This document shows, one piece after another, positions 15,230 to 43,729 of a stretch of 64,000 nucleotides of DNA (the first letter of the stretch is position 1; every line of letters begins with the position of its first letter). Both the position numbers and the translations under genes were made by a program. The notes beneath the pieces were generated by a model. The model saw nothing but the letters and a program-made list of their open reading frames with translations, was not told the DNA's origin and made no database searches. Location of the stretch: contig JAJYDE010000003.1 in assembly GCA_021777755.1 (NCBI GenBank), forward strand, positions 1 to 64,000. The letters run 5' to 3'. The stretch is from Deltaproteobacteria bacterium. Lineage in GTDB: Bacteria > Desulfobacterota > Syntrophobacteria > Syntrophobacterales > Syntrophobacteraceae.

Positions 15230-15230
15230 A

Positions 15231-17179: not shown

Positions 17180-17199
17180 GAAGACCCTTTACCGTTTTG

Positions 17200-18081: not shown

Positions 18082-18091
18082 CGGCTCTATC

Positions 18092-19267: not shown

Positions 19268-19299
19268 GACGGGTCTTCCTACCGCAAGGATTGCTGAAC

Positions 19300-21434: not shown

Positions 21435-21478
21435 GTCTTCGCCGATTGACGCAGACCGCCTGCGGCCGCGACTAAATT

Positions 21479-22489: not shown

Positions 22490-22513
22490 ATATCACCAGA
22501 CAGGTTTGAGAAG

Positions 22514-24139: not shown

Positions 24140-24196
24140 GATGGTAGCCTCGGGTGATTGTCGAGTGGCGGGGCGGTGGAACTAAAAGCTTACGGA

Positions 24197-26475: not shown

Positions 26476-27202
26476 GCTGGCGGTCTCCTTTTCCCTCAGC
26501 CGCCGCTCCCGGACAAGATGATCCAGCCGGGGCGCCGGCATCTTTGCGCCGGCCCGGGCGGCCCCTCTCCAGGGCCCTTCGAGTAAACCCGAGCACTTTG
26601 TACTCCGGCACCACCTTCGTGATGCAAAAACCCAGTCGAATCAATTCGTTTAAAGAGGCGAACTTTTCCGAGCGCACGTATGTGACGGCTTTCCTGTATC
26701 CCCGCCGCCCCGCAAGATTCAACAGATGCCTGCTGGCATGGGTCAACAACCCCAGCCCCCTGAATCTCGGGAATGTAAAGGCGTTTTCGATCATTATTTC
26801 ATGGTCGCCCAAGGGGTTGAAAAAGTGTCGGTAACGGCCCGACATCACCTCGTTTTCCTCCGGGAATACTATCCACTGGATATGGGCTATGAGACCCGAT
26901 TGGTTTCTGACCGCAAAACAGTTTTTCAAGTCGTTTCTGAAAAAATTGGCCCGGGCCAAAATTTCTCGCCTCGACTCGACATCCAGGCAGTGCGCCTGCC
27001 GAAAGATCGCCTCCCAGTCCCGCTCATCGACCGGCGCTATCGAAAGTTGCATCCTGTGCGGATTTGGAGCCGCGATTGCGGAAAGGCTCTTCTGCAGAAT
27101 GAAGACTTTATTGAAACTAAGAAGCCTGCCGAGTATTAATTTCGTCGTTCCCCGCGGCCCAAGGTATCGAACCGTCTGACGGCAGACGTTAAAACCAGCC
27201 AT
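26462..27202 (-). CDS. GNAT-family N-acyltransferase
   Basis: A 246-aa protein from the ATG at 27202, chosen because GGAGG stands nine bases upstream. Earlier in-frame starts reach 27271 but overlap the GT4 gene. The C-terminal half is a GNAT domain: NCFAVRNQSGLIAHIQWIVF, IENAFTFPRFRGLGLLTHASR (acetyl-CoA-binding R/Q-x-x-G-x-G/A-like RFRGLGL) and VRSEKFASLNELIRLGF. The N-terminus is basic. The gene end overlaps the ACP start by 14 bases. An acetyl-CoA or ACP-thioester donor is possible; location next to the ACP favours transfer of the activated group to an amino sugar. Confidence 0.75.
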   Translation of the reverse strand: MAGFNVCRQTVRYLGPRGTTKLILGRLLSFNKVFILQKSLSAIAAPNPHRMQLSIAPVDERDWEAIFRQAHCLDVESRREILARANFFRNDLKNCFAVRNQSGLIAHIQWIVFPEENEVMSGRYRHFFNPLGDHEIMIENAFTFPRFRGLGLLTHASRHLLNLAGRRGYRKAVTYVRSEKFASLNELIRLGFCITKVVPEYKVLGFTRRALERGRPGRRKDAGAPAGSSCPGAAAEGKGDRQHELR

Positions 27203-27221
27203 ACAGGCCATCCTCCGGCAA

Positions 27222-28919
27222 CTAAATTCTTTTATTGTCCTTTCCGCGATCAACGCCCGAAAGAGCGTCAACCATGTCCAGGTACTTTCCTTTCTTCAGG
27301 TCCCAGGAATAATCGTGCGCCATCTCAAGGGCGCCGGCCGAAAGAGTCTGCCTGAAAGATTGGTTTTTGAGCAGGAAAAGAAGTTTTTCGACCAGATCGT
27401 CTTCATCCTGAGCTTTAAAAAATTGCACCACCTTATCGCTGAAATAAAACCGGTCGATGCGCGTCGAAGATACGAGCACCGGGACCCCCAGGCTCATGAA
27501 TTCGAGTATCTTGGTGCTGAATGCTTCGTTTCCGAAAGCGTTGTCGCGCTTGGGAACGATTCCAAGATCCGAATCGGCCATGGCAACGGCTATATCCTTT
27601 ATGGGCACCCCGCCAAAGAACCTCACCCGTCCATCGAGCTCCAGCGAGTCGGCCAGTTCGGCCAGCCTTTCCTTTTCCGCCCCGTCTCCATAAATGTGCA
27701 ATTCAGCTTCCGGAAACTCCCCGGAAATTCTTGAAAATGCCCGGATGGCGATATCGAGTCCCTGGTGATAGTTTAGCGAGCCCGGATACATGACTATCTG
27801 TTTCCCGTCCGTTCTCGTTTTTTCGCGCCTGTGAAATATCGCCGGGTCCGGATAATTCAGGATGACGCTGCACTTGTCGGCTGGAACGGAGCGCCCGATC
27901 AGCTTTTGTTCCCAAAGATGGTTGGAAATGATCACGTGGTTGGAAAATCGGATTGAAAGCCTTTCGATTGCCACAAGGATTTTGAACAGCGCTCCCGCGG
28001 GGCTCTCCTCGAACTTGCTGGCATAGAACTCCGGAACGATATCATGAATGTCCAAAATGACCTTCGAACCGGTCAGCTTCGGCACCAGGGCCACAAAGAC
28101 CTCGAAATCGGGTACCGAATGAACGTGAATCAGATCATACGGGGCTCTCAGATGGTTTGCCGTAATCACTTTTGCCGAACGGAAAAAGAACCTGAGCAGC
28201 CGCAAAAGGTAGTCGAGTTTGCCCTTTTCGTTGAGGATTCTTTCCTGGATGCGGAAGACCCGTACGCCGTTTATCTCCTCGAACTCCGACTGGCCCGATT
28301 GCCGCAAAGCGATAACGTCAACCCGGTCGCCCCGTTTTGCAAGCGTCTCGGCATAGCGAATCACCCGGTTGTCCGTTTCGTAGAAGGAATAGGCGGGCAT
28401 GCAGACCCTGAGATTCCGGCGGCGCGGCACCCCCGAGCAAAGTTTGCCGTCCTTGTGTCTTTCCTTCCAAAACCGGGCTATTTCTCTTGGCAATACGTTC
28501 CAGTACTGTCCCCCATACCTGGAGTTGACATAGTCCAGAAACTGCTTGTAGTACTCCACCGGGTATTGTCCCAGCCTGGCTCTGCGCGTACCAAAATCCA
28601 TATAATCCGGATGGGTGATTATGAGCGCCATTCCCCCGTGTTTGACGATCCAGTCGAGTTTTTCTTTCCAGGTGGAGATGCTTTTTTCTTTGAGCAGTAC
28701 AAACAAGGTGAAATCCTGAGGCAGGGTGTAAGGAAGCTCGACGTATTGCGCCCCGTTTTGGCCCCCGTTGACGGCAAACGGGAAAATGGTCCTCACCGCG
28801 GTTGCCTCCAGTTCGAAAGGATCGGTGTCAAAGGTTGAAGAATCGTATTCTATCGCCAGCTCGTGGAGCCAGTCGTGCCTGCAGTACATGGCGGGAGCGC
28901 GGAACCCTTCGCCTGCCAT
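27222..28919 (-). CDS. C-terminal part of a deacetylase-glycosyltransferase fusion (GT4)
   Basis: A 565-aa frame. Residues 1-160 are the C-terminal portion of a polysaccharide deacetylase: GFRAPAMYCRHDWLHELAIEYDSSTFDTDPF, HGGMALIITHPDYMDFG. Residues 170-555 form a GT-B family 4 glycosyltransferase: RVCMPAYSFYETDNRVIRYAETLAKRG, DLIHVHSVPDFEVFVALV, VMYPGSLNYHQGLDIAIRAF and EAFSTKILEFMSLGVPVLVS (catalytic E-x7-E region). The missing deacetylase N-terminus lies in another frame just upstream (28850-29362), and the two sequences join smoothly at 28910/28911 if one base is restored. The GT4 half looks intact. The ATG at 28919 could reinitiate translation, giving a functional transferase without deacetylase activity. 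Confidence 0.85.
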   Translation of the reverse strand: MAGEGFRAPAMYCRHDWLHELAIEYDSSTFDTDPFELEATAVRTIFPFAVNGGQNGAQYVELPYTLPQDFTLFVLLKEKSISTWKEKLDWIVKHGGMALIITHPDYMDFGTRRARLGQYPVEYYKQFLDYVNSRYGGQYWNVLPREIARFWKERHKDGKLCSGVPRRRNLRVCMPAYSFYETDNRVIRYAETLAKRGDRVDVIALRQSGQSEFEEINGVRVFRIQERILNEKGKLDYLLRLLRFFFRSAKVITANHLRAPYDLIHVHSVPDFEVFVALVPKLTGSKVILDIHDIVPEFYASKFEESPAGALFKILVAIERLSIRFSNHVIISNHLWEQKLIGRSVPADKCSVILNYPDPAIFHRREKTRTDGKQIVMYPGSLNYHQGLDIAIRAFSRISGEFPEAELHIYGDGAEKERLAELADSLELDGRVRFFGGVPIKDIAVAMADSDLGIVPKRDNAFGNEAFSTKILEFMSLGVPVLVSSTRIDRFYFSDKVVQFFKAQDEDDLVEKLLFLLKNQSFRQTLSAGALEMAHDYSWDLKKGKYLDMVDALSGVDRGKDNKRI

Positions 28920-29362
28920 TCCTTCAAACGCCTATTGATTATCGTCGCCCTTTTTTCGAAAATCCGCCTGGTCTTGAAATCCTTGCCGTCATGATAGACG
29001 CCGTGAATTCCAACCTCGTAGCCGTTTGCGACCAGATAGCGCCTGAGCTCCGGCGAGACTTCGTAGCCCTCGATCACGAAATTGAAGGAGGACCGAAAAC
29101 CCATGGTCATTTCCATGGCAGCCAGTTCGACGCATTTGGCGTGCCCCGCGGACGACTCGACATCGTGGGTGAGAACCAGCGCGAATCTTTTGTCCCCTGG
29201 CCAACCTTCCCAGAAAGGCGGCGCCCCCGCGGCCCCCGGGTCTATGGGCCATTTGTCCTGTTCGAGCCTGCGCCTGGCCGCGGCCACTCGCTGCCTCAAA
29301 ACCACCTGCACAGGCCTTGGGACAAACGGTCGCACTTCGTAGTAGATCTCTCTTAGATACAT
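28850..29362 (-). pseudogene. N-terminal fragment of polysaccharide deacetylase, frameshifted
   Basis: A 170-aa frame with NodB-type deacetylase landmarks. FALVLTHDVESSAG supplies the metal-site Asp motif at about residue 63, and YEVGIHGVYHDGKD the HxxxH motif at about 118. After INRRLKEWQA it continues into meaningless residues (KGSALPPCTAG) while the true continuation, EGFRAPAMYC, is in the other frame. One missing base near 28911 explains this. Alternatives are a sequencing error, a real mutation, or programmed shifting; no clear slippery heptamer is present. Intact, the product would be a fusion of about 730 aa that deacetylates a sugar and extends the chain. Confidence 0.8.
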
Positions 29363-29390
29363 GGAAACCCCTGCGGCGATGGGCGGTTTT

Positions 29391-30431
29391 TCAACCGAAA
29401 TGTCTGTAGGCGGCTCCGATGGCCTTCAGGCCGCAAATCGGCATGAGCCTCATGAGTCCTGATAAATGGTGGCGCCTCTTTGAACCTCCGGCCACGAACC
29501 CGTTGGTTGAAACCATCAAGCGATGATAGTCGAGAAGAGATTCCTCGCAACCAAATCCGAGCTTGAACCGCCTGAGCCCCAGGTTTTCCGGATCGGTTCG
29601 CCCGAAACAAAAGCGACTGTATCCTTCACTTGCATAGAGTCTTATCGCCTCCCACATGATGGCCGCGTTAGCCCCCGGCCCGCCGAGGCTTCTGTCCGAA
29701 GCCCCGTACTTGTACATGGCCTTTCGTCCGAAATGGAAAAAGATCCCCCCCGCCACAGCCTTTCCGTCAAGATGGGCAAGGATAATCCGGCCCTTTCCCT
29801 TCGAACAGATATGCTCGTAAATCTTTTGAAAAAAGGTGAAGGGCTGGGGGGGCGCACCCTGCCTTTTCCTGGTAATGCAGTGAAGCCCGTAATATTGCCG
29901 CATCGCCTCGATGGAATTGAAGACCCCGGTGCTCACTCCGGATTTGCGGGCCCTTTTGAGGTTTCGCACCGTATTTTCGTGCAACCCCGAAAGGAGCTCT
30001 TTTTCCTCCGCCAGCTCGAGTCTGTGGCACACATAGCGTGAATGGACGGGAACCCGGAAGGGGAAATCTCCTCCCCCCCTGAAGTCCAGGTGCTTCCACC
30101 CGCTTTTTTCAGCCCTCTGCCTTGCCACCCCCACAAGCTTTAAAAACCCCGTGGAGCGCTGAAATCGGATCGGCTCGCAGCAATCGCTAAAGGGCAGAGA
30201 CACACCCCTTTTGCCCGTAAGGAAACTCTCCACTTCCAACATCGGGATCACCAGGGAAAACTCCCCACCGCGTGACAGGGCCAAAAACGAGGGCCTGTAC
30301 CCGTAGGATTCGCAAAGAACTCTTGTCCAGGCCGATGAGTGAAAAAACGAATAATTGCGGGCGCAAAGGATCCGTTCGTCCCATCCGGGAAAAGTGGTTG
30401 GATCGAGGATTTCAAACTGGTCCCGGCTCAT
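29391..30431 (-). CDS. FemAB-family aminoacyl/acyltransferase (copy 3)
   Basis: A 346-aa FemAB-type protein from the ATG at 30431, which overlaps the aminotransferase stop as ATGA. Features are FFHSSAWTRVLCESYGYRP at the N-terminus, SGLHENTVRNLKRARKSGVSTG (basic helix), GRIILAHLDGKAVAGGIFFHFGRKAMYKYGASD and the signature SRFCFGRTDPENLGLRRFKLGFG. This resembles exopolysaccharide-locus FemAB proteins thought to transfer an aminoacyl or acyl group. Because it is translationally coupled to the sugar aminotransferase, the most economical idea is that it acylates the amino group made there. No experimental function is implied by sequence. Confidence 0.82.
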   Translation of the reverse strand: MSRDQFEILDPTTFPGWDERILCARNYSFFHSSAWTRVLCESYGYRPSFLALSRGGEFSLVIPMLEVESFLTGKRGVSLPFSDCCEPIRFQRSTGFLKLVGVARQRAEKSGWKHLDFRGGGDFPFRVPVHSRYVCHRLELAEEKELLSGLHENTVRNLKRARKSGVSTGVFNSIEAMRQYYGLHCITRKRQGAPPQPFTFFQKIYEHICSKGKGRIILAHLDGKAVAGGIFFHFGRKAMYKYGASDRSLGGPGANAAIMWEAIRLYASEGYSRFCFGRTDPENLGLRRFKLGFGCEESLLDYHRLMVSTNGFVAGGSKRRHHLSGLMRLMPICGLKAIGAAYRHFG

Positions 30432-31648
30432 TGTCCGCCTCGCCCGGACATGAACCGGACGATGAGTTCGCAGACGTATTCCACCTGGCTGCTCGTCAGG
30501 GCCGGCCCCATCGGGAGTGAAAGTATGCACCGGGCGGCGGCTTCGGCCACAGGATAGGAGCCTGCGCCAACGTTCATCGGGCGATAGCTTTTTTGCAGAT
30601 GGAGCGGCACGGGGTAATGCAATCCGGTGACAACCCCGTGGTCGCCCAGATGCTTTTGAAGTTCATCTCTTCGCTGCGTGCGTATCACGTAGAGATGCCA
30701 GACCGGTCTCATTCCGGGACCGACCCCGGGCGCGATCACGCCCGGCGCTTTGCCCAAAAGCTCATTGTAGAGGGCCGCGCGTTCTCGCCGGATGCGGTTC
30801 CATTCGGACAGGTGTTTGAGCTTTACACTCAAAATGCCGGCTTGAATCGCGTCGAGCCTGCCGTTGTAGCCTTCCATGTCATGATGATATTTGCGGACCT
30901 GGCCGTGATCGCGGATCATGCCCACCTTGGCCGAAAGAGCCCCGTCATTGGTGGTGACCGCCCCGGCCTCTCCGCAGGCCCCGAGATTCTTGCCCGGGTA
31001 GAAGCTGAAGGCCGCAGCCGCTCCAAGCGAACCGATCCTTTTCCACCTGTTTTGCCGCCTCGAAAAATACTCGGCCCCGTGAGCCTGGCAGGCGTCCTCG
31101 ATGACCTTGAGCCCGTATTTTTCGGCCAAATCCAAAATGGGGTCCATTTCCGCAGGCTGCCCGTAGAGGTGCACCGGGACCACCGCTGTCACCGGTCGCC
31201 CCTTTTGGCGATGGGTCAATCGGCCGGACTTGTCAAAGTAGCAGCGCGTTTCCAGGTACTCGCGAAGTTTTTCCGGATCCATATTGCCGCTCGCCTCCAG
31301 GACGTCGACAAAATCGGCTGTGGCCCCGGCCTGCGTGATGGCTTCGGTTGTGGCGATAAAGGTGTTTGGGACCGTCACCGCGATGTCACCCGGACAGATT
31401 CCAGCGGCCATGAGGGCAAATCGCAGTCCATCGGTTCCGCTTCCCACCCCCCGGCAATGGTTTGTGCCGCAATAGGAGGCAAAATCGGCCTCAAAGCGCT
31501 CGAGCACTTTTCCGCCGACAAAGCTCGCGGTTCTTAGAGCCAGGCGAAAGACCTCCGTCAGCTCCTCTTCGAGTTCCCGGTGGGGGGAGGCCAGATCCAG
31601 GAAAGGGACTTCGCGGCGCAAAGGCTCCAAATTCGTCTTGCTCATCAT
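30428..31648 (-). CDS. DegT/DnrJ/EryC1/StrS sugar aminotransferase (WbpE-like)
   Basis: A 406-aa PLP enzyme that transfers an amino group from glutamate to a keto-sugar nucleotide. The PLP lysine lies in FSFYPGKNLGACGEAGAV near residue 220. VIEDACQAHGAEYF carries the conserved ED region, and SGTDGLRFALMA and NTFIATTEAITQAGA are family motifs. Together with the oxidoreductase at 32125 and the N-acetyltransferase at 31649 it reproduces the WbpB-WbpE-WbpD set, which makes UDP-2,3-diacetamido-2,3-dideoxy-glucuronic acid. WbpA (UDP-GlcNAc 6-dehydrogenase) is not in the window. An alternative substrate is the dTDP-4-keto-6-deoxyglucose made by RfbB. Confidence 0.93.
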   Translation of the reverse strand: MMSKTNLEPLRREVPFLDLASPHRELEEELTEVFRLALRTASFVGGKVLERFEADFASYCGTNHCRGVGSGTDGLRFALMAAGICPGDIAVTVPNTFIATTEAITQAGATADFVDVLEASGNMDPEKLREYLETRCYFDKSGRLTHRQKGRPVTAVVPVHLYGQPAEMDPILDLAEKYGLKVIEDACQAHGAEYFSRRQNRWKRIGSLGAAAAFSFYPGKNLGACGEAGAVTTNDGALSAKVGMIRDHGQVRKYHHDMEGYNGRLDAIQAGILSVKLKHLSEWNRIRRERAALYNELLGKAPGVIAPGVGPGMRPVWHLYVIRTQRRDELQKHLGDHGVVTGLHYPVPLHLQKSYRPMNVGAGSYPVAEAAARCILSLPMGPALTSSQVEYVCELIVRFMSGRGGQ

Positions 31649-32134
31649 CTAGTCCCTTTCGATAAATCTGACCAGGCGCGCCGGGTTGCCCGCCACCACC
31701 CCGCCGGGGGGAACGTCGGCGGTCACAATCGCCCCGGCCCCCACAATCGCATCTTCCCCGATTGTCACATTTGCCAGAAGCACCGCCCCCGAGCCGATCG
31801 AAGCGCCTTTTTTCACCAGCGTGGGTTCGATCTTCCAATCGGCTTCGGTCTGAAGCGCCCCCGCGGAATTGGTCGCCCTCGGGTAGGTGTCGTTTATGAA
31901 AACGACTCCATGGCCGACGAACACATCGTCTTCGATCGTCACACCCTCGCAGATGAAAGCATGACTCGATACCTTGCAGTTTCTCCCCACGGTCGCGTTT
32001 TTCTGGATTTCAACAAAGGCGCCGATTTTGGAATTGTCCCCGATCCTGCAGCCATAAAGGTTTATGAAACTGGCAAGGCTTACATTTTCTCCAAGCGTCA
32101 CGTCGGCGGCAACACAGAGAAATTTCAAATCCAA
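31649..32134 (-). CDS. left-handed beta-helix N-acetyltransferase (WbpD-like)
   Basis: A hexapeptide-repeat acyltransferase of about 161 aa with imperfect I/V-G-x-x-x-x repeats: VTLGENVSLASFINLYGCRIGDNSKIG, ATVGRNCKVSSHAFI, VTIEDDVFVGHGVVFINDTYPRA, ASIGSGAVLLANVTIGEDAIVGAGAIV, GNPARLVRFIERD. The Asn-Asp segment with DTYPRA is characteristic of WbpD-type UDP-3-amino-GlcNAcA acetyltransferases. The open frame reaches 32206 but no ATG with a ribosome site exists. The TTG at 32134, with AAGGGGGGG six bases upstream, or the TTG at 32128 is likely. The region before it is a run of seven A and seven G that could also allow a -1 shift from the upstream oxidoreductase. Confidence 0.88.
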   Translation of the reverse strand: MDLKFLCVAADVTLGENVSLASFINLYGCRIGDNSKIGAFVEIQKNATVGRNCKVSSHAFICEGVTIEDDVFVGHGVVFINDTYPRATNSAGALQTEADWKIEPTLVKKGASIGSGAVLLANVTIGEDAIVGAGAIVTADVPPGGVVAGNPARLVRFIERD

Positions 32135-33126
32135 ATGAGGCCCCCCCTTTTTTTGAGCGACTTGTCGGCGGCCTCCAGCATGCTCACCACCATGTAGCCG
32201 GCCCAACCATCGTTAATGGGATCGCCGCCGCCAAGCACACAGTCGATAAACTGCCGGGTCTCCAGCTTCAGGGCTTCGGTCGGGTCCAGCTTGGGCGACC
32301 ACATGTCGCCCGATCGGTAGCTCACCAGTAAATCGTACAAGCCCAGCCGGTTGCCGATCTCCACCCCCTTGTCGTAGACCTTCACCTTCTCGTCCGCGTC
32401 AAGGTCGTTCCAGACCACCATCTTCTTTTCGCCCCCGAGCAGCGTGGTCCTCACCTTCACCGGGGAGAGCCAGTTGACGTTGATGTGAGCGATCACGTTG
32501 TCCGGAAAATACACCGTTACGTAAGCCACATATTCGTGCTCGCAGACGTGGTTTCCCCCGGTTGCCACCACAGCCTCGGGCTTTCGCCCGATCAGGTGGT
32601 TCATGATGGAAATGTCGTGCGGGGCAAGATCCCAGATGACGTTTACATCGTGCTGGAACAAACCGAGGTTGACCCGCGTCGAATCATAATAATAGAGCTG
32701 GCCCAGTACGCCGTCCTCGACCAGTTGCTTGATCTTGCGCACCGCCCCGGTAAACAGAAAGGTGTGGTCGACCATGATCTTGAGGTTCCGCCGTTCGGCA
32801 ATCTCGATGAGTTCCAGGGCCTGCTCGGAATTGGCGGTAAAAGGCTTTTCCACAAAAACGTGCTTGCCGTTTTCAAGCGCCCTTCTTGCCACCTCGAAAT
32901 GAGTCGATACGGGGGTCACGACCGCCACCACGTCTATATCGGGCGCCTCGACGAGCGCCCTCAACTCGGTTGTCGTATCGACTCCGGGCAAAGACTTCAG
33001 CGCACGCCCCAGGGCATCCCTGTTTGCGTCACAAACCCTTACGACCCTGCAGCCGTCAAGCCTGTCGAAATTCCTGGCGATGTTGGGCCCCCAATAGCCG
33101 TATCCGACAATGCCCACCCGGATCAT
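32125..33126 (-). CDS. Gfo/Idh/MocA sugar-nucleotide oxidoreductase (WbpB-like)
   Basis: A 333-aa NAD-dependent dehydrogenase. The Rossmann motif VGIVGYGYWGPNIARNF is at residues 4-20. VTPVSTHFEVARRALENGKHVFVEKPFT holds the conserved EKP triad at about residue 96. DLAPHDISIMNHLIG carries the catalytic His region. WbpB-type enzymes oxidise C3 of UDP-GlcNAcA to supply the aminotransferase. The C-terminus reads KKRGGLIWI and is encoded across AAAAAAAGGGGGGG, just before the stop, overlapping the acetyltransferase start. It is the first gene of the predicted diamino-uronate set. Confidence 0.93.
   Translation of the reverse strand: MIRVGIVGYGYWGPNIARNFDRLDGCRVVRVCDANRDALGRALKSLPGVDTTTELRALVEAPDIDVVAVVTPVSTHFEVARRALENGKHVFVEKPFTANSEQALELIEIAERRNLKIMVDHTFLFTGAVRKIKQLVEDGVLGQLYYYDSTRVNLGLFQHDVNVIWDLAPHDISIMNHLIGRKPEAVVATGGNHVCEHEYVAYVTVYFPDNVIAHINVNWLSPVKVRTTLLGGEKKMVVWNDLDADEKVKVYDKGVEIGNRLGLYDLLVSYRSGDMWSPKLDPTEALKLETRQFIDCVLGGGDPINDGWAGYMVVSMLEAADKSLKKRGGLIWI
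32141..32154 (-). repeat. A7G7 homopolymer pair at a gene junction
   Basis: The coding strand reads seven A then seven G within the last codons of the oxidoreductase. The acetyltransferase frame is open across it in the -1 register, so slippage would fuse the two proteins. Confidence 0.8.
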
Positions 33127-33179
33127 TTCCTCCTCCTTTCAGGCAAAACACTTTTTTCATGCCTCGGCTCGATCGGCTC

Positions 33180-34298
33180 TCAATATGCTCCCTTGCCGCT
33201 CAAAACGGCCAGGGGCGTCTTGAAGATAAGTTTGAGGTCCAGCCACAGACTCCAGTGTGTCATGTAGTGGATGTCAAGGCGCACCATCTCGTCAAAAGTG
33301 GTTCTGCTCCTGCCGCTTACCTGCCATATTCCGGTGATTCCCGGCTTCATCTCCAGCACGCGCCTCCAGTGCCACGGGTCATAATTTTCAACCTCGTAGG
33401 GAATCGGCGGGCGAGGCCCCACAAGAGACATCTCCCCCGTGAGCACCTTCAGAAACTGTGGAATTTCATCAAGACTCGTACTTCTCAAAAACCTTCCCAA
33501 CCGGGTAATGCGCGGATCGTCACGCAGCTTGAAAAGCCGCTCACCACCGTCGGCCGCCTTCGCTTCTCCAAGGATCAGGCTCTTCGTATATTCCATGTGG
33601 GGCGAAGGATCGCTATCCACATACATTGACCTGAATTTGAGAAAGGTGAACATCCTGCCGCATTGCCCCACCCGCTGCTGGCGAAAAAAGACCGGTCCCT
33701 TCGAACCGAGTTTGATCATTGCCGCAAAGATGAGGAAAACAGGAGATAACACAACCAGGGCGGCCAGAGCCCCGAAGATATCAAGGACACGTTTTAGCCA
33801 AAGACCCTTTTCATGCGAATCGAGCCTTTGCCTGATATCCGGATAAAGGGTCAGATCCCCTGGCAAAACCAGTCCGTCGGGCTTTTCAGGAAAGAATCGA
33901 AAACCTATCCGGACCCTTTTGACCTCATCGGGCCCCAGCTCCAGGGCGAGCCTCGCCTTGACTCTTGCCGCGATCGACTTTATTGGCGCAGATCCGCTCC
34001 CGCCTGATATCTCGGTCAGAATAACGCCCGCAATCAAATCCTGCCGATACCATCCAAGGACGTCTATCTCCCTCTTGGTTGCCGCAAGAGATGAAAAAAT
34101 CCTTTCGCCGATGTCCGCGATCTCCTCCGCCGGGCCATCGAGTGCCAGCAGCATCAAGGCAAAACCCCTCTTCGACCGTTCCGACCGCTTACGTTCCAAC
34201 TCGAGAATCCTGTTGAAAGACTGTTCACTGTATCCCGGCCAGGGTTTTCCGCCTTCGGACGCAACTGGAACGGTCAACGCCTTCGACACAACCTTCAT
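33180..34298 (-). CDS. initiating sugar-1-phosphate transferase (polyprenol phosphate)
   Basis: A 372-aa protein from the ATG at 34298, which has GGAAGG five bases upstream. Earlier TTG and ATG codons to 34340 lack such a site. The C-terminal 200 residues are a bacterial sugar transferase: KRVLDIFGALAALVVLSPVFLIFAA (membrane hairpin), KGPVFFRQQRVGQ, FTFLKFRSMYVDSD, GRFLRSTSLDEIPQFLKVLTGEMSLVGPRPP and MKPGITGIWQVSGRS. It loads the first sugar phosphate onto undecaprenyl phosphate. The N-terminal 150 residues (SFNRILELERKRSERSKRGFALMLLALDG) resemble a degenerate GGDEF-type domain without the signature, as in some delta-proteobacterial homologs. That raises the possibility of nucleotide control, which is inference. 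Confidence 0.92.
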   Translation of the reverse strand: MKVVSKALTVPVASEGGKPWPGYSEQSFNRILELERKRSERSKRGFALMLLALDGPAEEIADIGERIFSSLAATKREIDVLGWYRQDLIAGVILTEISGGSGSAPIKSIAARVKARLALELGPDEVKRVRIGFRFFPEKPDGLVLPGDLTLYPDIRQRLDSHEKGLWLKRVLDIFGALAALVVLSPVFLIFAAMIKLGSKGPVFFRQQRVGQCGRMFTFLKFRSMYVDSDPSPHMEYTKSLILGEAKAADGGERLFKLRDDPRITRLGRFLRSTSLDEIPQFLKVLTGEMSLVGPRPPIPYEVENYDPWHWRRVLEMKPGITGIWQVSGRSRTTFDEMVRLDIHYMTHWSLWLDLKLIFKTPLAVLSGKGAY

Positions 34299-34400
34299 AG
34301 TTGCCTTCCGATCCACAGGTTGAAAAGCCATTGAATCCAATATTGACCAATTTTAAGCTGAGATGAGCCGAGGATTGGGTCGCCCTGAGGTTTCAGAGCT

Positions 34401-35132
34401 TCATAGATACTTGTAGACGGACTCGGGAATGTAAAAACGTCTTTTGTTAAGCGCGACTCCCAAAATATTTCCACCCACCCTGGAAATACTGTCCCGCAAT
34501 CTTGCGACCGTTTGCCATCGCGTCTTTTCAGCCTCGACCACCAGCACCACTCCATCGACCTTGGATGCGATTGCCAAACCGTCGGGAGAAGTCGCCAAAG
34601 GAGCTGAATCGATTAGCACCAGGTCGAAATTGGCCCTGAGTTTTTCGCACATCCTGTCAAAGGAGGCGTTGAAAATCTCGGGGGTGGAAACCGAGGAATT
34701 CGAACATCCGCTGACGAACAATTTGGACTCCCCGGCGAGTTGAAAAGCTTCCTCGATATTCCTCCCGCTTCGAAGCACATCCACCCAATCGATTCCGCTA
34801 CCTATATCGAAAAAACGATCCTGGCTGTGATTGAGTCTGTCCGCGTCCATCAGAAGCACCGAATGGCCTATCAGATCGGCTACCACCTTGGCAAATTCTC
34901 TGGAAATCGTCGAAGTTCCCTCTCCCTCGCGCGCGCTTATGAATTGAATGATCCTGGATTTGAGATGAGGCAAAATGGTCTCGATGACCTTGTAGAGGCT
35001 AAGCATTTCGTCTTCCAACCCCAACCCCGCCCGGGCCGGCGGAGCGAAGGGAACCGGAGCCGCACGATCGCTCTCACCCCTGAGCTTCTTTTCACGATGA
35101 ACGTTTTGCAGCGCTTCGTAGACCTTGCTCAT
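34401..35132 (-). CDS. CpsD/Wzc-type BY-kinase-like ATPase with altered Walker A
   Basis: A 243-aa ParA/MinD-like protein. MSKVYEALQNVHREKK is the usual N-terminus of such proteins in exopolysaccharide loci. The P-loop region is SAREGEGTSTISREFA (about residue 67), where the Lys of GxGKST is replaced by Thr. VLLMDADRLNHSQDRFF (Walker A') and FDLVLIDSAPLATSPDGLAIAS (Walker B) are clear. There is no C-terminal tyrosine cluster; it ends SVYKYL. It would partner the Wzc-like protein at 36778, whose cytoplasmic kinase domain is lacking. The missing Lys suggests weak or regulatory ATP use. A promoter overlapping a palindrome lies just upstream. Confidence 0.85.
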   Translation of the reverse strand: MSKVYEALQNVHREKKLRGESDRAAPVPFAPPARAGLGLEDEMLSLYKVIETILPHLKSRIIQFISAREGEGTSTISREFAKVVADLIGHSVLLMDADRLNHSQDRFFDIGSGIDWVDVLRSGRNIEEAFQLAGESKLFVSGCSNSSVSTPEIFNASFDRMCEKLRANFDLVLIDSAPLATSPDGLAIASKVDGVVLVVEAEKTRWQTVARLRDSISRVGGNILGVALNKRRFYIPESVYKYL

Positions 35133-35176
35133 TGCCGCGTTCCTTTATCGATAAACCCTGGCATCGCCTGTATTCA

Positions 35177-35193
35177 ACTCCTTTATAAGGAGT
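35177..35193. promoter_or_regulatory. 17-bp palindrome overlapping a -10 element (operator candidate)
   Basis: ACTCCTT and AAGGAGT flank a three-base centre, a perfect 7-bp inverted repeat. On the minus strand it covers the TATAAA of the promoter at 35182-35209, the position expected for a repressor site. No T run follows, so it is not a terminator. Confidence 0.5.
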
Positions 35194-35209
35194 AAAAACA
35201 ATTACTCAA
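35182..35209 (-). promoter_or_regulatory. sigma-70 promoter before the CpsD-like gene
   Basis: Minus strand: TTGAGT (35209-35204), 16-base spacer, TATAAA (35187-35182), about 50 bases before the ATG at 35132. AAAGGA lies about nine bases before that ATG. It would start a new transcript within the locus. Confidence 0.5.
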
Positions 35210-35285
35210 GGCTGGACAGGTTAAAATAAATTTCACCGCGAAAATTCCCTCCGTACAATACCCTTCTCACAGCCGGATCGTCGGG

Positions 35286-36767
35286 CTAGGGAATAACGAT
35301 CTTTTCCCCCACCATTATTTTGTTGATATCCCTCACCCGGGGGTTGAGTTCTTTGAAGCGCAGCAGCTTGTCATCGCTCACGCCACCGTAGATGCCGATC
35401 AAAAGTTTGCTGACGCTGTCACCTTGCCTGACGGTTACCGCATGCCCGGCCTGCGGCCCCGGAGGGCTCACCGGGGGGGCGGTAACGGGGGCGGGGGCTT
35501 CATCTTCGCTCTTGGCCCTCTTTTCGACTGCGGGCTTATTGTCCTTGTTAGCAACCGTCGGCGCGCCAAGTCCCGGTTTGTCCTTTGGCGCACTTGTTTT
35601 CACCGGCCCGGCCGCGGCATTGCCAGCTTCCGTGGTTACCCCCGGCACGTTGCGGGCAGCTTTCTCAAGGCCTTCCGCACCGCGGGAGGCCTTTGGCTTC
35701 ACCGGCGTCTCGGGTTGGTGCCCCGCTGTGGCAGCCGCCTCCTCTTTCGTCCCCTTCGCAAACTTCACCCCGGAATCGACCGGCTGCGTTTTTCCGCTTT
35801 TGATAATGGCCCGCAAGGGTCCGGCCCCGATGACCCGTTTACCCGGTCCAAGATTTGCCCGACCGGTCACAGTGGCCCTGGCGGCCCAAAAGGCCGCCCA
35901 CACACAACCCGCAAGAACCGGGACGAAGATGATTTTCCATCCCCAACCCCAACGGGTTCGCCTTTGTGCGAAATCTCCGGCCACCTCTTTGACGATCCGG
36001 TGATCGACCCGCTTTCGCTGATACCCGTATGCGGTCACAAGCGCATTGTCACACAGGATGTTTATGGTTCGCGGAATTCCGCGGGCCATTTTGACGATCC
36101 GCTTTAGCGCCCTCTGGCTGAAAACCTCATTATGGAACGAAGAAGCCCGCATCAGCCGGTGCTGGACATAGGCAACGCTTTCTTCCTCCGTTAGCGATTC
36201 GATCCGGGAGCGAATCGCAATCCGCTGCTTCAGCTGCCGCAACTCGGGCAACTCCAGCCGGCTCTCGAACTCGGGCTGGCCGACCAGAATGATTTGTATC
36301 AGCTTGTCCCGCGAGGTCTCGAGATTGGACAACATCCGCAGCCGCTCCAGGGTCTGGACGGGCATGTTCTGCGCCTCGTCGATTATCAGCACGACATTGC
36401 GGTCATTCCTGTATTCGTCGACAAGGTAATGCAGAAGGAGGTCCACAAGTTCGGCGGGCTCTTCCACCGGGGCCCCCAATCCAAGCTCCGAGCAAATCTG
36501 CTTTAGAAGCCGCTCGAAGGTAAGGATCGCATTGAATATGTAGACGATCCTGATCTTTTCCGGATCGGTGCCCTCCAGGTATGACCTGAGGATGGTCGTC
36601 TTTCCCACACCCACTTCACCGGTAACGGCAATGAACCCCTTTCTGGTTTCAATGCCGTAGAAAATCGAGGCGGAGGCCTCCTTGTGACTCGGACTGAGAA
36701 AGAGAAAATCCGGATCCGGAGTGATGTGAAAAGGACTTTTGGTGAACTTGAAATACTCGAGATACAT
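35286..36767 (-). CDS. ExeA/GspA-type AAA ATPase with C-terminal LysM
   Basis: A 493-aa protein. The N-terminal AAA domain begins MYLEYFKFTKSPFHITPDPDFLFLS and has Walker A GEVGVGKTTILRSYL (about residue 51) and Walker B NVVLIIDEAQNMPVQTLERLRML, as in the exopolysaccharide/exosortase-associated ATPase of the ExeA family. One membrane segment (IIFVPVLAGCVWAAFWAA) lies near residue 280. It is followed by about 140 low-complexity Lys/Ala/Pro residues and a LysM domain (VTVRQGDSVSKLLIGIYG ... INKIMVGEKIVIP) in the periplasm. It probably couples cytoplasmic ATP use to the periplasmic secretion apparatus through peptidoglycan binding. It starts ten bases after the chain-length gene. Confidence 0.9.
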   Translation of the reverse strand: MYLEYFKFTKSPFHITPDPDFLFLSPSHKEASASIFYGIETRKGFIAVTGEVGVGKTTILRSYLEGTDPEKIRIVYIFNAILTFERLLKQICSELGLGAPVEEPAELVDLLLHYLVDEYRNDRNVVLIIDEAQNMPVQTLERLRMLSNLETSRDKLIQIILVGQPEFESRLELPELRQLKQRIAIRSRIESLTEEESVAYVQHRLMRASSFHNEVFSQRALKRIVKMARGIPRTINILCDNALVTAYGYQRKRVDHRIVKEVAGDFAQRRTRWGWGWKIIFVPVLAGCVWAAFWAARATVTGRANLGPGKRVIGAGPLRAIIKSGKTQPVDSGVKFAKGTKEEAAATAGHQPETPVKPKASRGAEGLEKAARNVPGVTTEAGNAAAGPVKTSAPKDKPGLGAPTVANKDNKPAVEKRAKSEDEAPAPVTAPPVSPPGPQAGHAVTVRQGDSVSKLLIGIYGGVSDDKLLRFKELNPRVRDINKIMVGEKIVIP

Positions 36768-36777
36768 CCCGGCAACC

Positions 36778-38319
36778 TCAGTCCCTGGTCGCTATGGCGA
36801 TCAGCACCGGAAGGGCAAGTCTCTTTTCGGCCTCCATGGCGGTGCTCATCCCCTGTTTGTTGATTTCCAAGCCGTAGGCGATCGCAAGGCTTGCGAACGC
36901 GGCAAAAACCAGGGCGGCGGCAATCAAAAGGGCCAGGGGCTTGGGTGGATTAACCGGCGAAAGCGGCGCCCGGGCGGGCTCTATGACGCTCACACTGGTC
37001 ATTTTGTCCCTGCCCAGCTCGTTGTAGACGTTTGCCGCTTCGAGCTTTTGCCCGTAATCCCCGCAGATTCGTTTATAGGAGGCCACAGCCGCCGCCAGCA
37101 TTCTGTACCGGTTTTCGTTGGATTCAAAAAACTGCAGTTCCTTATTGATCTCATCAAGCTGTCCCTGGGTGCCCGTCAACCTCACCGAAAGCGCGCCCAG
37201 TTTGGCCTTGTTGCCCAGGACCTGCTTTTGAATCTCCTGGTAGACAGGGTCTGCGGGAGCAACACCCGGATTCGAAAAATTCTGCTTGATGTAGTTTTCC
37301 ACCGTTGCGATCTGGGAGCGAACGGCCCCGATCAGGGGGTTGTTTCCCTTGTACTTGGCCGCCAGCGCCTGCTCCTGAAGCTTCAGGCCGAGTAATCTGG
37401 ATCTCGCGTCTCCGGCCCGGTCCGAAGCGGCGGCGGTCAGCTCTGAGAGCGGCAGCGACTTCAATTCCTTTTCCAGTTCGGCACTCATTTGCTCCACTTC
37501 CTTTATTTCGTTTGCCGTATTGTCCAATGCCACGTGTATTTTCAAACGTTGATCCAGGAGCATCTTGCGTTGCTGGTCGAAGTCCATTATTTTGGTGCGC
37601 TCCGAAAAGACCCTCATGTCGTTTAGGGATTCCTTAAGTTTTTGCTGGTAGTAATCGACCTTGTTTTGCAGAAATAACGAAGACTTGGGGTCCTTATAGA
37701 CCTCGCCGCGCTTTTCGATGTAATCGCTTACCAGCTGGTTTACCACGGCCGCGGCGCTTACGGGATCGGCTCCCTCGAATGTGACGTCGATCACGTCACC
37801 CTTCTTGGCAGGTTTCACCTTCATATATTTGTCCAGCAGCAAGAGCGCCTCGCCCTGCCTGCCAAGGCCGTTGGAATTGACTGAACCGAGCCCCGGGAAA
37901 ATTATTTCCGGCCTCAAAGCCCTGATCACTTTCTCCTTGAGGTCTCGGCTCTCCAGAATGCTGATTTCCGCCCCCAGCATCTGCGCATGATCCACCGCGG
38001 GCCCATCCCGCTTGACAAGCGACGGATCGGGATAATAATTTTCCCAGCCGAACTTCACCAGAATCGAAGACTTGGCTTCAAACCTGGGCGAGTAGATCAT
38101 TTCATCGTATGCAACGGAGAAAGCGCAAAGTAGTACGCTCAACACCAGAAACGATATGATGATAGTCCTCTTATGCTTGAAAAATATCGCAAGGTAGTCG
38201 CGAAGGTTGTTAGCCTGACGCACCTGTCGCACCATGAGCATTCGTTCGGATTGCAGCATTGAATCGGACCCGTTCGACGCGGCGGGGACATTTCGATCCT
38301 GATATTGGGAATCACTCAT
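36778..38319 (-). CDS. Wzc/GumC-type chain-length determinant protein (no kinase domain)
   Basis: A 513-aa inner-membrane co-polymerase. After RDYLAIFFKHKRTIIISFLVLSVLLCAF (first membrane segment, about residues 42-66) come the Wzz-domain sequences KSSILVKFGWENYYP and VIDVTFEGADPVSAAAVVNQLVSDYIEKRG. A long coiled-coil region, about 215-400, contains VDYYQQKLKESLNDMRVFSERT and RLTGTQGQLDEINKELQFFES. SVIEPARAPLSPVNPPKPLALLIAAALVF is the Pro-rich loop and second membrane segment. It controls polymer length together with Wzy and stacks with the export protein encoded 10 bases upstream. The separate CpsD-like protein may supply the ATPase part. Confidence 0.93.
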   Translation of the reverse strand: MSDSQYQDRNVPAASNGSDSMLQSERMLMVRQVRQANNLRDYLAIFFKHKRTIIISFLVLSVLLCAFSVAYDEMIYSPRFEAKSSILVKFGWENYYPDPSLVKRDGPAVDHAQMLGAEISILESRDLKEKVIRALRPEIIFPGLGSVNSNGLGRQGEALLLLDKYMKVKPAKKGDVIDVTFEGADPVSAAAVVNQLVSDYIEKRGEVYKDPKSSLFLQNKVDYYQQKLKESLNDMRVFSERTKIMDFDQQRKMLLDQRLKIHVALDNTANEIKEVEQMSAELEKELKSLPLSELTAAASDRAGDARSRLLGLKLQEQALAAKYKGNNPLIGAVRSQIATVENYIKQNFSNPGVAPADPVYQEIQKQVLGNKAKLGALSVRLTGTQGQLDEINKELQFFESNENRYRMLAAAVASYKRICGDYGQKLEAANVYNELGRDKMTSVSVIEPARAPLSPVNPPKPLALLIAAALVFAAFASLAIAYGLEINKQGMSTAMEAEKRLALPVLIAIATRD

Positions 38320-38329
38320 TTTGTGTACC

Positions 38330-39034
38330 TTACTGTTTAATGTAATAGTACATTAGAACTTCATTGCCGAAAACGCCTATCGTTCTGCCAAGGTACTGAT
38401 CGACCCACAAGTCCACATCGGCTATATTACTTCTTGGTACGATCACCATATCGTAGGGCTGCAAATAGATGTCCTGCGACAGATCCACGCCTTTCATCGC
38501 ATCCTTTATGTTGAGCGCGATCTGAAAGGGCTTGTTGTCGGCCCCCCTGCGAAAAACGATCACTTCGTCAGTGCGGGCTCCGGGCAAAAATCCGCCGGCC
38601 ATGTAAACGGCTTGCAAAACGGTTGTCGGGCCGCCGAGAAGCTCCATGGTCGGCTTTGCCACCTCGCCTCCCACAAAGATTTTGTTGCCGGCCGCATTTC
38701 TTACCACCACGGAAACCTCGGCTTGCTGAAGATATTTGGTGTAATCCCTTGCCACAATTTTTCGCAATTCCTCGCTGCTAAGCCCCGCGACCCTTACTTC
38801 ATGCACCAGAAGCAGCGAAATCGTCCCGTCGGGTTGCACCGTCACATCCTGGTTCAAATCGGGATTATAAAACAGCTTGACGCTGATCTTGTCACCGGGG
38901 ACGATTCGATAAACCCCGGGACAGGCTGGCGCACCGGTGCCGGGCGCCCCGACCTTGACCGCGCTCTTGTTGTAGGCTCCACAACCGCATAGACCAAACG
39001 AAATCACCAAGAATAGGAAAAGTGTGGTTTTCAT
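38330..39034 (-). CDS. Wza-type polysaccharide export lipoprotein
   Basis: A 234-aa lipoprotein. The signal MKTTLFLFLVISFGLCGCG has lipobox LCGC at about residue 18. The Poly_export domain follows: YRIVPGDKISVKLFYNPDLNQDVTVQPDGTISLLLV, then ELRKIVARDYTKYL and VGGEVAKPTMELLGGPTTVLQAVYMAGGF (SLBB). The C-terminus lacks an obvious amphipathic helix of Wza but contains IVPRSNIADVDLWVDQYL. It should form the outer-membrane export channel for the polymer. It is the first gene of the polysaccharide locus. The 129-base upstream gap holds no convincing promoter. Confidence 0.93.
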   Translation of the reverse strand: MKTTLFLFLVISFGLCGCGAYNKSAVKVGAPGTGAPACPGVYRIVPGDKISVKLFYNPDLNQDVTVQPDGTISLLLVHEVRVAGLSSEELRKIVARDYTKYLQQAEVSVVVRNAAGNKIFVGGEVAKPTMELLGGPTTVLQAVYMAGGFLPGARTDEVIVFRRGADNKPFQIALNIKDAMKGVDLSQDIYLQPYDMVIVPRSNIADVDLWVDQYLGRTIGVFGNEVLMYYYIKQ

Positions 39035-39163
39035 TTTTCCCGCCTGTGATTATGTACAGCACTGCTTATCGAATCGTAATTGACCTGGATTACAGGGAAG
39101 CGGGGTGTAAAAGTTGGTCCAAGGAAAGAAAAACAGATGGTGGGAAGGCCGGACTCCGGAAGG

Positions 39164-39682
39164 CTATTTCTTTTTGTCCGCGGCTTTCATGCGGTCCAGT
39201 ATCATCATTCGTTGCGCCTTTTGCCAGTCCCAGGGAGCAATCGCGGGCGGCTGCGCCCAAAGTCCGACAAAACTCATCTGGGCAAGCCCCTCGAGCTTTT
39301 TCCATTCCCGGCACAGGCGGGATTTGTCACCACAGGGCTTAACCCATGCCAGCCCGTATGTCACAAGTTTATAGTTCAAATACCCCGCCGAACCGTCCAC
39401 TCTGACAAGCCCGTTTTCGACACCGTAGTTGTCCTTGAAAACAGGGGTGATCTCCACCTCTTTTTGAAGCGACAAAAATTTGGTCATAAAAAGCGCCTTC
39501 TCGTGAAAAGGTTGGCCAAATAGAGGGCAGGCCACCCCGTAGAGACGAAGTTTTCGGCTGGAACCGTTTGCGGAAACCGTAAGCAAATCCCCCGCGGTGA
39601 CATCCACGACTTTGCCCGTGTAGGCGTAAGAGGGGGAAACAAATAGGAAAAAGCTCCCCAGAACCACGGCAACAAAAATCAT
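39164..39682 (-). CDS. secreted thermonuclease-like (SNase-fold) protein, catalytic residues altered
   Basis: About 172 aa from the ATG at 39682; a GTG at 39709 is the longer option without a ribosome site. The signal peptide MIFVAVVLGSFFLFVSPSYA is clear. The OB-fold core TGKVVDVTAGDLLTVSANGSSRKLRLYGVACP matches staphylococcal-nuclease family proteins. However, the usual DxPE segment reads ACPLF and the distal YGR region reads NYGVENG, so the general-base Glu and the second Arg appear to be missing. GQPFHEKA and VTYGLAWVKP are conserved family positions. It may be an inactive binding protein in the periplasm. It lies directly before the export gene and could share its transcript. Confidence 0.75.
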   Translation of the reverse strand: MIFVAVVLGSFFLFVSPSYAYTGKVVDVTAGDLLTVSANGSSRKLRLYGVACPLFGQPFHEKALFMTKFLSLQKEVEITPVFKDNYGVENGLVRVDGSAGYLNYKLVTYGLAWVKPCGDKSRLCREWKKLEGLAQMSFVGLWAQPPAIAPWDWQKAQRMMILDRMKAADKKK

Positions 39683-39709
39683 GACCTTAGATTCACCCCT
39701 TGACCTCAC

Positions 39710-42601: not shown

Positions 42602-42645
42602 ACCTCCTCGTAAGTCGCCCGGCAAATTCAGCGCCCCGAGGAGGT
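42602..42645 (-). promoter_or_regulatory. Shine-Dalgarno-sequestering hairpin (riboswitch expression platform)
   Basis: In the minus-strand RNA ACCUCCUCG (42645-42637) is a perfect complement of CGAGGAGGU (42610-42602). The latter is the ribosome site four bases before the ATG at 42597. The 26-base loop lies between. Pairing would block translation, so ligand binding to the aptamer next to it could switch access to this site. Confidence 0.7.
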
Positions 42646-42654
42646 GCCGCATCC

Positions 42655-42745
42655 GCCCAGCAGTCCTGCTACCCTATTCCCATGCCCCGGAACTTAGGCC
42701 AGTGACTTTGCGTCCCGCGCTTTCACGCGGTTTGCCTTTTATGGT
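42655..42745 (-). ncRNA. c-di-GMP-I (GEMM) riboswitch aptamer
   Basis: The minus strand reads AAAAGGCAAACC, a GCG/CGC hairpin with GAAA tetraloop, then GGGACGCAAAGTCACTGGCC and TAAG. These match the invariant GEMM-I core (GGCAAACC, GAAA loop, GGGACGCAAAG, GGCCUAA), followed by a second hairpin containing GGGTAGCAGG. It lies in the leader of the secreted repeat protein, between a sigma-54-type promoter and a ribosome-site hairpin. Binding of c-di-GMP is expected from the class; the direction of control is not visible. Confidence 0.88.
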
Positions 42746-42774
42746 TGGTGCCAAATATCCTTGCCCCATTCCAA

Positions 42775-42792
42775 TAGCAAAATGAGTGCCTG
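42775..42792 (-). promoter_or_regulatory. sigma-54-type promoter of the riboswitch-controlled gene
   Basis: Minus strand AGGCACTCATTTTGCT: GG and GC are separated by ten bases, with GGCAC at -24 and TTGCT at -12. Transcription would start near 42765, about 20 bases before the aptamer, which fits. Confidence 0.7.
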
Positions 42793-43269
42793 GCCGACCA
42801 CCGACCTGCCGGCTTTCAGCAAATCGCCCGCCGCAACAGCTTGACGTTTTTCGAGTCCCTCCCGCCTCGGGCGGTTCAATTCCATTTTCCGCTTTTGGTG
42901 TTTCATTCGATTACGATTTGGTGGTTGCTTGCAGCCTTGTAATCGCTACGCTTCACGGCGAAGAGGGCTCCAACCACAGCGACATCATTGGGTAAATTGT
43001 CTAATGAAGGCAAAACCGCCACCGCCTCGGGGTTATTTTTCCCCCGACTTTGGCCCCGGGGCAAAAACTGGTAAAACCTCGGTTGGAAAGCTGAACCTTT
43101 TAGAACAATATGTCGGAAATTTTTACACTCAAAAACCCGCAGCCTGTAACGCTCGACTGTATTCTCTTCACTACATGGTGTAGGTTTTTTTTACACCCGC
43201 GCCCCGGGCGCCCCTGGCCTTGAACCATAAAATACCTTTGCAATCCATTGGTTACGGCTAATAGGGCAA
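42793..43269. other. intergenic region between divergent sigma-54 promoters
   Basis: About 480 bases with no supported gene, placed where an enhancer-binding activator of sigma-54 promoters would bind. Candidate sites are GTGTA and TACAC around a T-rich spacer near 43178-43197, and the related TTTTTACAC near 43119-43128. I cannot tell which, if any, is used. Confidence 0.4.
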
Positions 43270-43287
43270 ACGGCACTCAAATTGCTA
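43270..43287 (+). promoter_or_regulatory. sigma-54-type promoter of the PilZ gene
   Basis: ACGGCACTCAAATTGCTA has GG and GC ten bases apart, with GGCAC (-24) and TTGCT (-12) matching the consensus. It closely resembles the divergent site at 42775-42792. The start would be near 43300, about 50 bases before the ATG. Confidence 0.72.
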
Positions 43288-43351
43288 GAGATCCTTGCAC
43301 CGTGATATCGACTGTCCCCAGTTCACAGGCTGTTACCGAAGGGAATTTTTC

Positions 43352-43729
43352 ATGAATCGGGAAAGGCGCAGGACCAAAAGAGTCCAAATCCAAAAAGAGG
43401 TTTTTGCCGCGTTTGTCCTCTCCGACGGACCGGTCATTGTGGGCAGGGTGATGGATGCCAGTCTGAACGGTTTGTCCGTCCAGTATCTGGCCACGGAAAA
43501 GCTTCGAAAAGGTCAAGTGAGCATCAGTATATTTGCCGCGGGTTCACCGGGACTCAATCGCCTGCAAACGAACGTTATGTACGATCTGGAAGTGCCCGGA
43601 ACGTCCTGGAGCGCGCACCAGACAAGACGTTGCGGAATCTGTTTTACACAATACCGCTCGGAGTTCAGGGCCTGGTTCAAAGGGTTTTTGGGCTCCAACA
43701 GAGAAGCGGGTTGCTCGCAAGCCCACTGA
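43352..43729 (+). CDS. PilZ-domain c-di-GMP-binding protein
   Basis: A 125-aa protein from the ATG at 43352, with AAGGGA seven bases upstream. A longer frame from 43295 starts upstream of or at the predicted transcript start. The two c-di-GMP motifs are present: RRRTKR (RxxxR) at residues 4-9 and DASLNG (DxSxxG) about 30 residues later. The remainder is beta-rich with no other domain. It lies divergent from the c-di-GMP riboswitch gene, and both have near-identical sigma-54-type promoters, so it probably senses the same signal. Its partner protein is unknown. Confidence 0.85.
   Translation: MNRERRRTKRVQIQKEVFAAFVLSDGPVIVGRVMDASLNGLSVQYLATEKLRKGQVSISIFAAGSPGLNRLQTNVMYDLEVPGTSWSAHQTRRCGICFTQYRSEFRAWFKGFLGSNREAGCSQAH

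Follow-up and report, generated by a model that had tools for sequence, protein, structure and literature searches.

Predicted sigma-54 and c-di-GMP control of a riboswitch-led surface-protein gene and a divergent PilZ-type gene, apparently through different activators

Analysis of a 64-kb stretch of DNA (the window), contig 6 of the 4.2-Mb assembly of a Syntrophobacteraceae bacterium, revealed two divergent sigma-54-type sites positioned 480 bp apart at the head of an exopolysaccharide locus. On the minus strand, the site precedes a c-di-GMP-I (GEMM-I) aptamer and a gene encoding a secreted protein of 790 amino acids with an fn3 (FN3) domain, InlB-like repeats and three PKD domains. On the plus strand, it precedes a gene for a putative PilZ-type c-di-GMP receptor. 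The features of the region are listed in Table 1.

Table 1. Features at the surface-protein/PilZ region and the basis of their assignment.
Feature	Position in window	Strand	Basis or remark
Exopolysaccharide locus	3954..39709	-	Downstream of the surface-protein gene; Wzx and Wzy_C present
Surface-protein gene, 790 aa	40225..42597	-	fn3 and three K319L-like PKD domains (Pfam); signal-peptide-like start
Helix B, SD-bearing strand CGAGGAGGT	42602..42610	-	Sequence and own-versus-swapped pairing test
Hairpin A	42623..42655	-	CGGATGCGGC (42655-42646) with GCTGAATTTG (42632-42623); competes with helix B; predicted in the free fold
Helix B, anti-SD strand ACCTCCTCG	42637..42645	-	Sequence and own-versus-swapped pairing test
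c-di-GMP-I (GEMM-I) aptamer	42656..42746	-	RF01051, 77.1 bits, E 2e-13 within the window
Sigma-54 site of the riboswitch transcript, AGGCACTCATTTTGCT	42776..42791	-	Score 14.0; start predicted at about 42765
Palindromic upstream element ACCACCAAATCGTAAT, presumed activator site	42910..42925	-	Leave-one-out score 13.1, p 0.002
Distal PEP-CTERM box TGTCGGAAATTTTTACA	43111..43127	+	6/6 orthologs; sole exact genome match of the 18-nt pattern
Proximal PEP-CTERM box TGTAGGTTTTTTTTACA	43179..43195	+	75 nt before the sigma-54 site; 6/6 orthologs
Sigma-54 site of the PilZ transcript, CGGCACTCAAATTGCT	43271..43286	+	Score 12.6; start predicted at about 43297
PilZ-type c-di-GMP receptor gene, 125 aa	43352..43729	+	Pfam PilZ below cut-off; RxxxR and DxSxxG

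Relatives of the surface protein were found in 22 of 26 genomes of the family. The protein was considered as an exosortase substrate and rejected, as its C terminus carries no PEP-CTERM. The exopolysaccharide locus comprises genes for Wzx, Wzy_C, Wza-like, Wzz-like, kinase-like, priming-transferase and glycosyltransferase proteins. A preliminary description of this DNA had called the adjoining locus complete, which is fair because the set from Wzx and Wzy_C through the Wza-like, Wzz-like and kinase-like genes to the priming transferase is present. Several of the genes are closest to XrtA-type families, all below the curated cut-offs (TIGR03015, 276.8 versus 324.5), and no exosortase was found in the 64-kb window; the locus was therefore not classified as an XrtA/PEP-CTERM locus. 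Between the surface-protein gene and the polysaccharide genes lies a gene for an SNase-fold protein (39164-39709, minus strand; PF00565, 34 bits), whose place is apparently kept in relatives.

The aptamer proposed earlier ahead of the surface-protein gene was confirmed by an Rfam covariance search, in which RF01051 matched over its full length (model positions 1 to 87) with 77.1 bits (gathering score 35). It is the only Rfam riboswitch in the window. Its P1 helix pairs CCA (42744-42742) with TGG (42659-42657), being limited to three pairs in this clade, and its end lies 58 nt from the ATG of the 790-aa protein. Alignment of AAAAGGCAAACC to the RF01051 model showed a G where Vc2 has G20, a selectivity factor for c-di-GMP aptamers but no hard filter (PMC9262584). 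Because of this G, c-di-GMP is the likelier ligand. The same residue makes 3',3'-cGAMP highly improbable as the ligand, despite the frequent sensing of cGAMP among GEMM-I aptamers of Geobacter (PMC8835794), a genus once also classed in the Deltaproteobacteria. The segment between the predicted transcript start and the aptamer (42765-42747, minus strand; GGATATTTGGCACC) is unusually strongly conserved in the clade; no role was found for it.

Further GEMM-type elements were noted outside the window. A c-di-GMP-I riboswitch of the same genome (L153, about 3001-3739; G000 C11:7739-8477) is located 77 nt ahead of a PEP-CTERM gene and ties c-di-GMP directly to the exosortase system. The other two GEMM-like elements of the genome, L129 (G000 C10) and L149 (G000 C8), belong to the c-di-GMP-I-GGC family (RF03167). 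At L126 (G012 C1:3041694-3041895), tandem GEMM-type aptamers about 50 nt apart precede one gene.

Sigma-54 sites were scored with an approximate matrix drawn from general knowledge of the consensus. The riboswitch site (14.0) and the PilZ site (12.6) ranked second and third of all sites in the 64 kb. A Markov null predicted about 0.6 site per 64 kb at scores of at least 14 and 2.2 to 5.4 sites around 12.6, so that the PilZ site taken alone is within chance expectation. The sites were accepted because they are conserved among relatives. In nine of nine same-genus riboswitch-FN3/PKD loci (G000, G001, G002, G003, G004, G006, G008, G009 and G010), a sigma-54 site with a score of 13.0 to 16.5 is positioned 24 to 37 nt upstream of the aptamer, and 0 of 100 shuffles were as good. 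A riboswitch with an upstream sigma-54 site thus occurs in 9 of 11 same-genus genomes. In all six PilZ orthologs, the site is the top match within 500 bp upstream. The GG-N10-GC core is present in both promoters and conserved in the orthologs, and the genome contains an RpoN gene. If the sites were chance matches, the genes would use other promoters, and a few sites equal to that of PilZ are indeed expected per 64 kb. However, both sequence and position are kept in nine and six genomes, respectively, and each site is accompanied upstream by an element that is itself conserved at a nearly constant distance, which makes chance extremely improbable. The sigma-54-type promoters originally assigned to both genes therefore stand, and the starts given with them (42765 and 43300) agree within 3 nt with the positions expected from the -12 elements (about 42765 and 43297). 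The highest-scoring sigma-54-like site of the window is found elsewhere (13320-13335, minus strand; TGGCACATTTTGTGCT; score 14.9), within a pectate-lyase-like gene of the exopolysaccharide locus and about 50 nt past the listed start of that gene, the true start of which may be downstream.

Comparison of the regions upstream of the riboswitch promoters revealed a palindrome with a consensus near ATTACCAAATSGTAAT. Leave-one-out scoring detected it in 14 of 15 GEMM loci with a sigma-54 site, 145 to 253 nt before the aptamer (scores 13.1 to 24.0, p <= 0.002); four of the matching loci were not used in building the matrix. In 25 control GEMM loci without a sigma-54 site, the score reached at most 7.8 bits. 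The palindrome is presumed to be the site of an enhancer-binding protein. A gene for such an activator was sought beside other strong matches (G011 C53, G002 C69 and C61, G000 C96, G009 C97), and no candidate was found there. Most of these other matches look like chance occurrences or repeats.

The 125-aa protein scored 18.1 bits with the Pfam PilZ model (PF07238), below the cut-off of 22.5, and it is for this reason called PilZ-type here. PF07238 matched five of six orthologs at E values up to 10, the best being 1.5e-4. The PilZ motifs RxxxR and (D/N)xSxxG, the latter as DxSxxG, are present, with R6, R10, D35, S37 and G40 invariant in the six orthologs. In a Foldseek search with a low-confidence structure model (pLDDT 61), almost all of the top 40 PDB hits were PilZ proteins, led by the PilZ domains of YcgR, BcsA and Alg44. 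Despite the low Pfam score, the original assignment as a PilZ-type receptor is thus upheld by the motifs; a PilZ beta-barrel fold is suggested by the hits of the low-confidence model, and the protein presumably binds c-di-GMP. Elsewhere in the window, a PilB-type pilus ATPase (60663-62378, plus strand) carries an MshE-type c-di-GMP-binding domain (NF053729, 65 bits, cut-off 38) and represents a third kind of c-di-GMP output within it.

Analysis of the PilZ promoter revealed a pair of 17-nt boxes, which are present in six of six orthologs 143 to 158 nt and 75 to 78 nt before the sigma-54 site. The preliminary description had seen near-identical sigma-54 sites on the two sides; it was correct about the site at PilZ and missed the box pair upstream. 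The boxes fit motif 1 of Haft 2006, which is 17 nt long, ends in TTTACA and is sometimes repeated; its distance to the sigma-54 motif averages 62.8 nt (s.d. 10.6, range 32 to 92), and that from the sigma-54 motif to the start codon averages 71 nt (s.d. 38.5) (PMC1569441). The 75-nt spacing found here lies inside the published 32 to 92 nt. The phylogenetic profile of the motif matches that of the response regulator PrsR (PMC1569441), and the genome encodes PrsR (587 bits, cut-off 502.6) together with RpoN and exosortases, the latter on contigs other than that of the window. In related systems, pepA of Aquincola is RpoN dependent (PMC9850573), and PEP-CTERM targets are enriched by DVUA0057 of D. 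vulgaris (PMC3333781). A genome-wide search for the box pattern with up to three mismatches yielded ten places, one of them exact (43111). Besides PilZ, two of these have a strong downstream sigma-54 site (scores 17.2 and 11.3, at 96 and 145 nt), and in each case the gene that follows is a PEP-CTERM gene (TIGR02595). For this reason the PilZ gene is predicted to be a member of the PrsR regulon. As its product is PilZ-like and lacks a PEP-CTERM, it was classified as a predicted target of the regulator and not as a PEP-CTERM gene. On the riboswitch side, a search for a PrsR box in register found none.

In the leader RNA, ACCTCCTCG (42645-42637) is perfectly complementary over 9 bp to CGAGGAGGT (42610-42602), which contains the Shine-Dalgarno (SD) sequence directly before the ATG at 42597. 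This pairing (helix B) was evaluated in 23 loci by comparing the energy of each anti-SD strand with its own SD strand and with strands swapped among loci. Own pairs had a mean of -20.4 kcal/mol versus -16.6 kcal/mol for swapped pairs, and none of 20,000 permutations was as good (2 of 20,000 inside the genus, 0 outside). The perfect 9-bp hairpin previously said to mask the ribosome site is backed by this result. P1 of the aptamer covaries as well (0/20,000 permutations as good). Hairpin A (CGGAUGCRGC with GCUGRAUUUG) is strongly conserved right after P1 and brackets the anti-SD. Because it hardly varies within the genus, the pairing test is silent on it there; outside the genus its covariation is weak (141/20,000). 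The base of hairpin A shares nucleotides with the 3' strand of P1, and helix B runs into the CAGC of hairpin A outside the genus, which suggests that P1, hairpin A and helix B compete. No transcription terminator was found on the coding strand between the aptamer and the start codon, and a translational platform is therefore likelier.

The effect of the aptamer fold on the SD was calculated from secondary-structure energies, without pseudoknots or kinetics. When P1 was imposed in the covarying register, SD accessibility dropped in 6 of 21 loci, for example from 0.42 to 0.00 in the window and from 0.70 to 0.00 in G008, and was unchanged in the other 15. The model thus predicts that c-di-GMP switches translation of the surface protein off; this polarity is the weakest step of the proposal. 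The same anatomy could also work in the opposite direction, with c-di-GMP turning translation on, as would be expected of a matrix protein, by way of a fold missed by the secondary-structure calculation, such as a pseudoknot in which the hairpin A loop pairs with the SD only without ligand. In the genus, an H-type pseudoknot can be drawn from hairpin A and helix B, A is conserved, and closely similar cyclic-dinucleotide aptamers include both ON and OFF switches (PMC9262584). In none of the 21 loci, however, did imposing P1 raise SD accessibility, and the extension of B into the CAGC of A makes the two helices mutually exclusive outside the genus. An ON switch is accordingly considered unlikely, though far from negligible, and the OFF polarity is retained.

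The gene order around the two promoters varies among the eleven same-genus genomes. PilZ adjoins the riboswitch gene in five, and a direct divergent pair with no gene between is found in two (G000, the genome of the window, and G009). An epimerase gene lies between the two genes, about 1.6 kb apart, in G008 and G010. In G004, PilZ follows downstream in the same orientation, and it is the epimerase gene that is divergent. G007 keeps PilZ with its promoter and boxes and, by position, an adjoining SNase-type gene, and the riboswitch gene is absent from that place. In G001, G002, G003 and G006, the riboswitch gene occurs without this PilZ alongside. The arrangement is therefore a frequent neighborhood and not an obligatory unit. 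In G010, gene order and sequence starts show the surface gene followed by a small exported protein and Wza-, Wzz-, ATPase- and kinase-like frames as in the window; this relative, at least, thus retains the link to the polysaccharide locus.

Enhancer-binding proteins can act across distances of about 480 bp. A single activator bound between the genes could thus drive both sigma-54 promoters, which are divergent and 480 bp apart here and in G009. Against this, each gene keeps its own upstream element when the two are separated by about 1.6 kb and an epimerase gene (G008, G010) or when the riboswitch gene is absent (G007), and the riboswitch side lacks a PrsR box in register. One activator for both promoters is consequently improbable. 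The different, separately conserved upstream elements point to two activators, and together with the restriction of direct adjacency to G000 and G009 they led us to abandon the single shared control node of the preliminary description. The layered control of the region is considered real, with each gene apparently under a different activator.

Scanning 395 genomes of the phylum for the DNA pattern returned mostly chance matches; among 21 loci checked, riboswitches beyond that of the window were found only at L220, L249 and L250. L249, from another family of the order, and L250, from another part of the phylum, contain true c-di-GMP-I aptamers (60.3 and 87.3 bits), each preceded by a sigma-54 site and followed by an anti-SD and, downstream, an FN3-like protein. 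In L249, ATTACAATTGTAAT is present upstream in addition. By these predicted elements, two other families of the phylum share the sigma-54/GEMM-I/anti-SD/FN3 arrangement. At L220 (G302 C122, near 4285), a sigma-54 site and a c-di-GMP-I aptamer are followed by a sigma-54-activator-like frame, and this riboswitch may control an enhancer-binding protein.

The following mechanism is proposed. From the minus-strand promoter, a leader RNA with the c-di-GMP-I aptamer would be transcribed for the secreted FN3/PKD surface protein. Comparison among relatives establishes this candidate sigma-54 site, its upstream element, the aptamer, P1 and helix B as conserved. We infer that an enhancer-binding protein bound to the ATTACC palindrome, which lies about 120 nt ahead of the promoter, activates transcription together with RpoN. 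Without ligand, hairpin A would tie up the anti-SD region and leave the ribosome site partly free. With c-di-GMP, P1 would form, the base of hairpin A would be lost, helix B would form and translation would fall. From the plus-strand promoter, whose sigma-54 site and boxes are likewise established by comparison, the mRNA of the PilZ receptor would be transcribed, presumably activated through the two boxes by PrsR of the PEP-CTERM/exosortase system. A functional link to the polysaccharide is probable. To this explanation as a whole, with separate activators, an OFF riboswitch and a PrsR-driven PilZ gene, we assign a probability of about 0.6. It is proposed more tentatively, at less than even odds, that the PilZ receptor belongs to the PrsR regulon while a separate sigma-54 activator and a c-di-GMP OFF riboswitch govern the neighboring matrix protein. 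If true, a single exopolysaccharide locus would have two sigma-54 signaling systems and one second messenger acting in opposition, by means of a sigma-54/GEMM-I/anti-SD unit found repeatedly on FN3 surface proteins across the phylum.

Enhancer-dependent transcription, c-di-GMP riboswitches and PilZ receptors are usually studied apart and are here tied to one exopolysaccharide locus, with a testable sequence element for each of the three output layers. The findings predict an activator with a defined binding site used ahead of riboswitch-controlled surface proteins, and the predicted exosortase regulon gains a signaling protein. The layered arrangement had been described as not being a standard unit. 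Its parts are known, and the combination was not found described in the literature on GEMM with RpoN and on PEP-CTERM with riboswitches, in a search that covered mainly open-access journals. As judged from the predicted elements, the novelty lies in the conserved association, on these genes, of a GEMM-I/anti-SD leader with a sigma-54 promoter and a specific activator site; the inclusion of a PilZ receptor in the predicted PrsR regulon is likewise new.

Part of the account of Geobacter bemidjiensis (PMC2996986) describes a GEMM riboswitch on genes of fibronectin type III surface proteins, and the window resembles it in having a GEMM aptamer ahead of a predicted outer-surface FN3 protein. Relative to that part of the account, the sigma-54 promoter, enhancer element, anti-SD platform and PilZ neighbor are found only here. 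The PilZ side resembles the published PEP-CTERM-box/PrsR/sigma-54 promoters (PMC1569441, PMC9850573, PMC3333781) in its repeated 17-nt box ending in TTTACA, the sigma-54 site that follows and the spacings. It differs from promoters of exosortase substrates in that the gene behind the boxes encodes a PilZ receptor without a PEP-CTERM. In Methylophaga nitratireducenticrescens (PMC12530212), as here, c-di-GMP riboswitches are found on genes of exported matrix proteins in an exopolysaccharide neighborhood. There, the riboswitch gene is the PEP-CTERM gene, whereas in the window it is an FN3/PKD gene and the box belongs to the neighboring PilZ gene.
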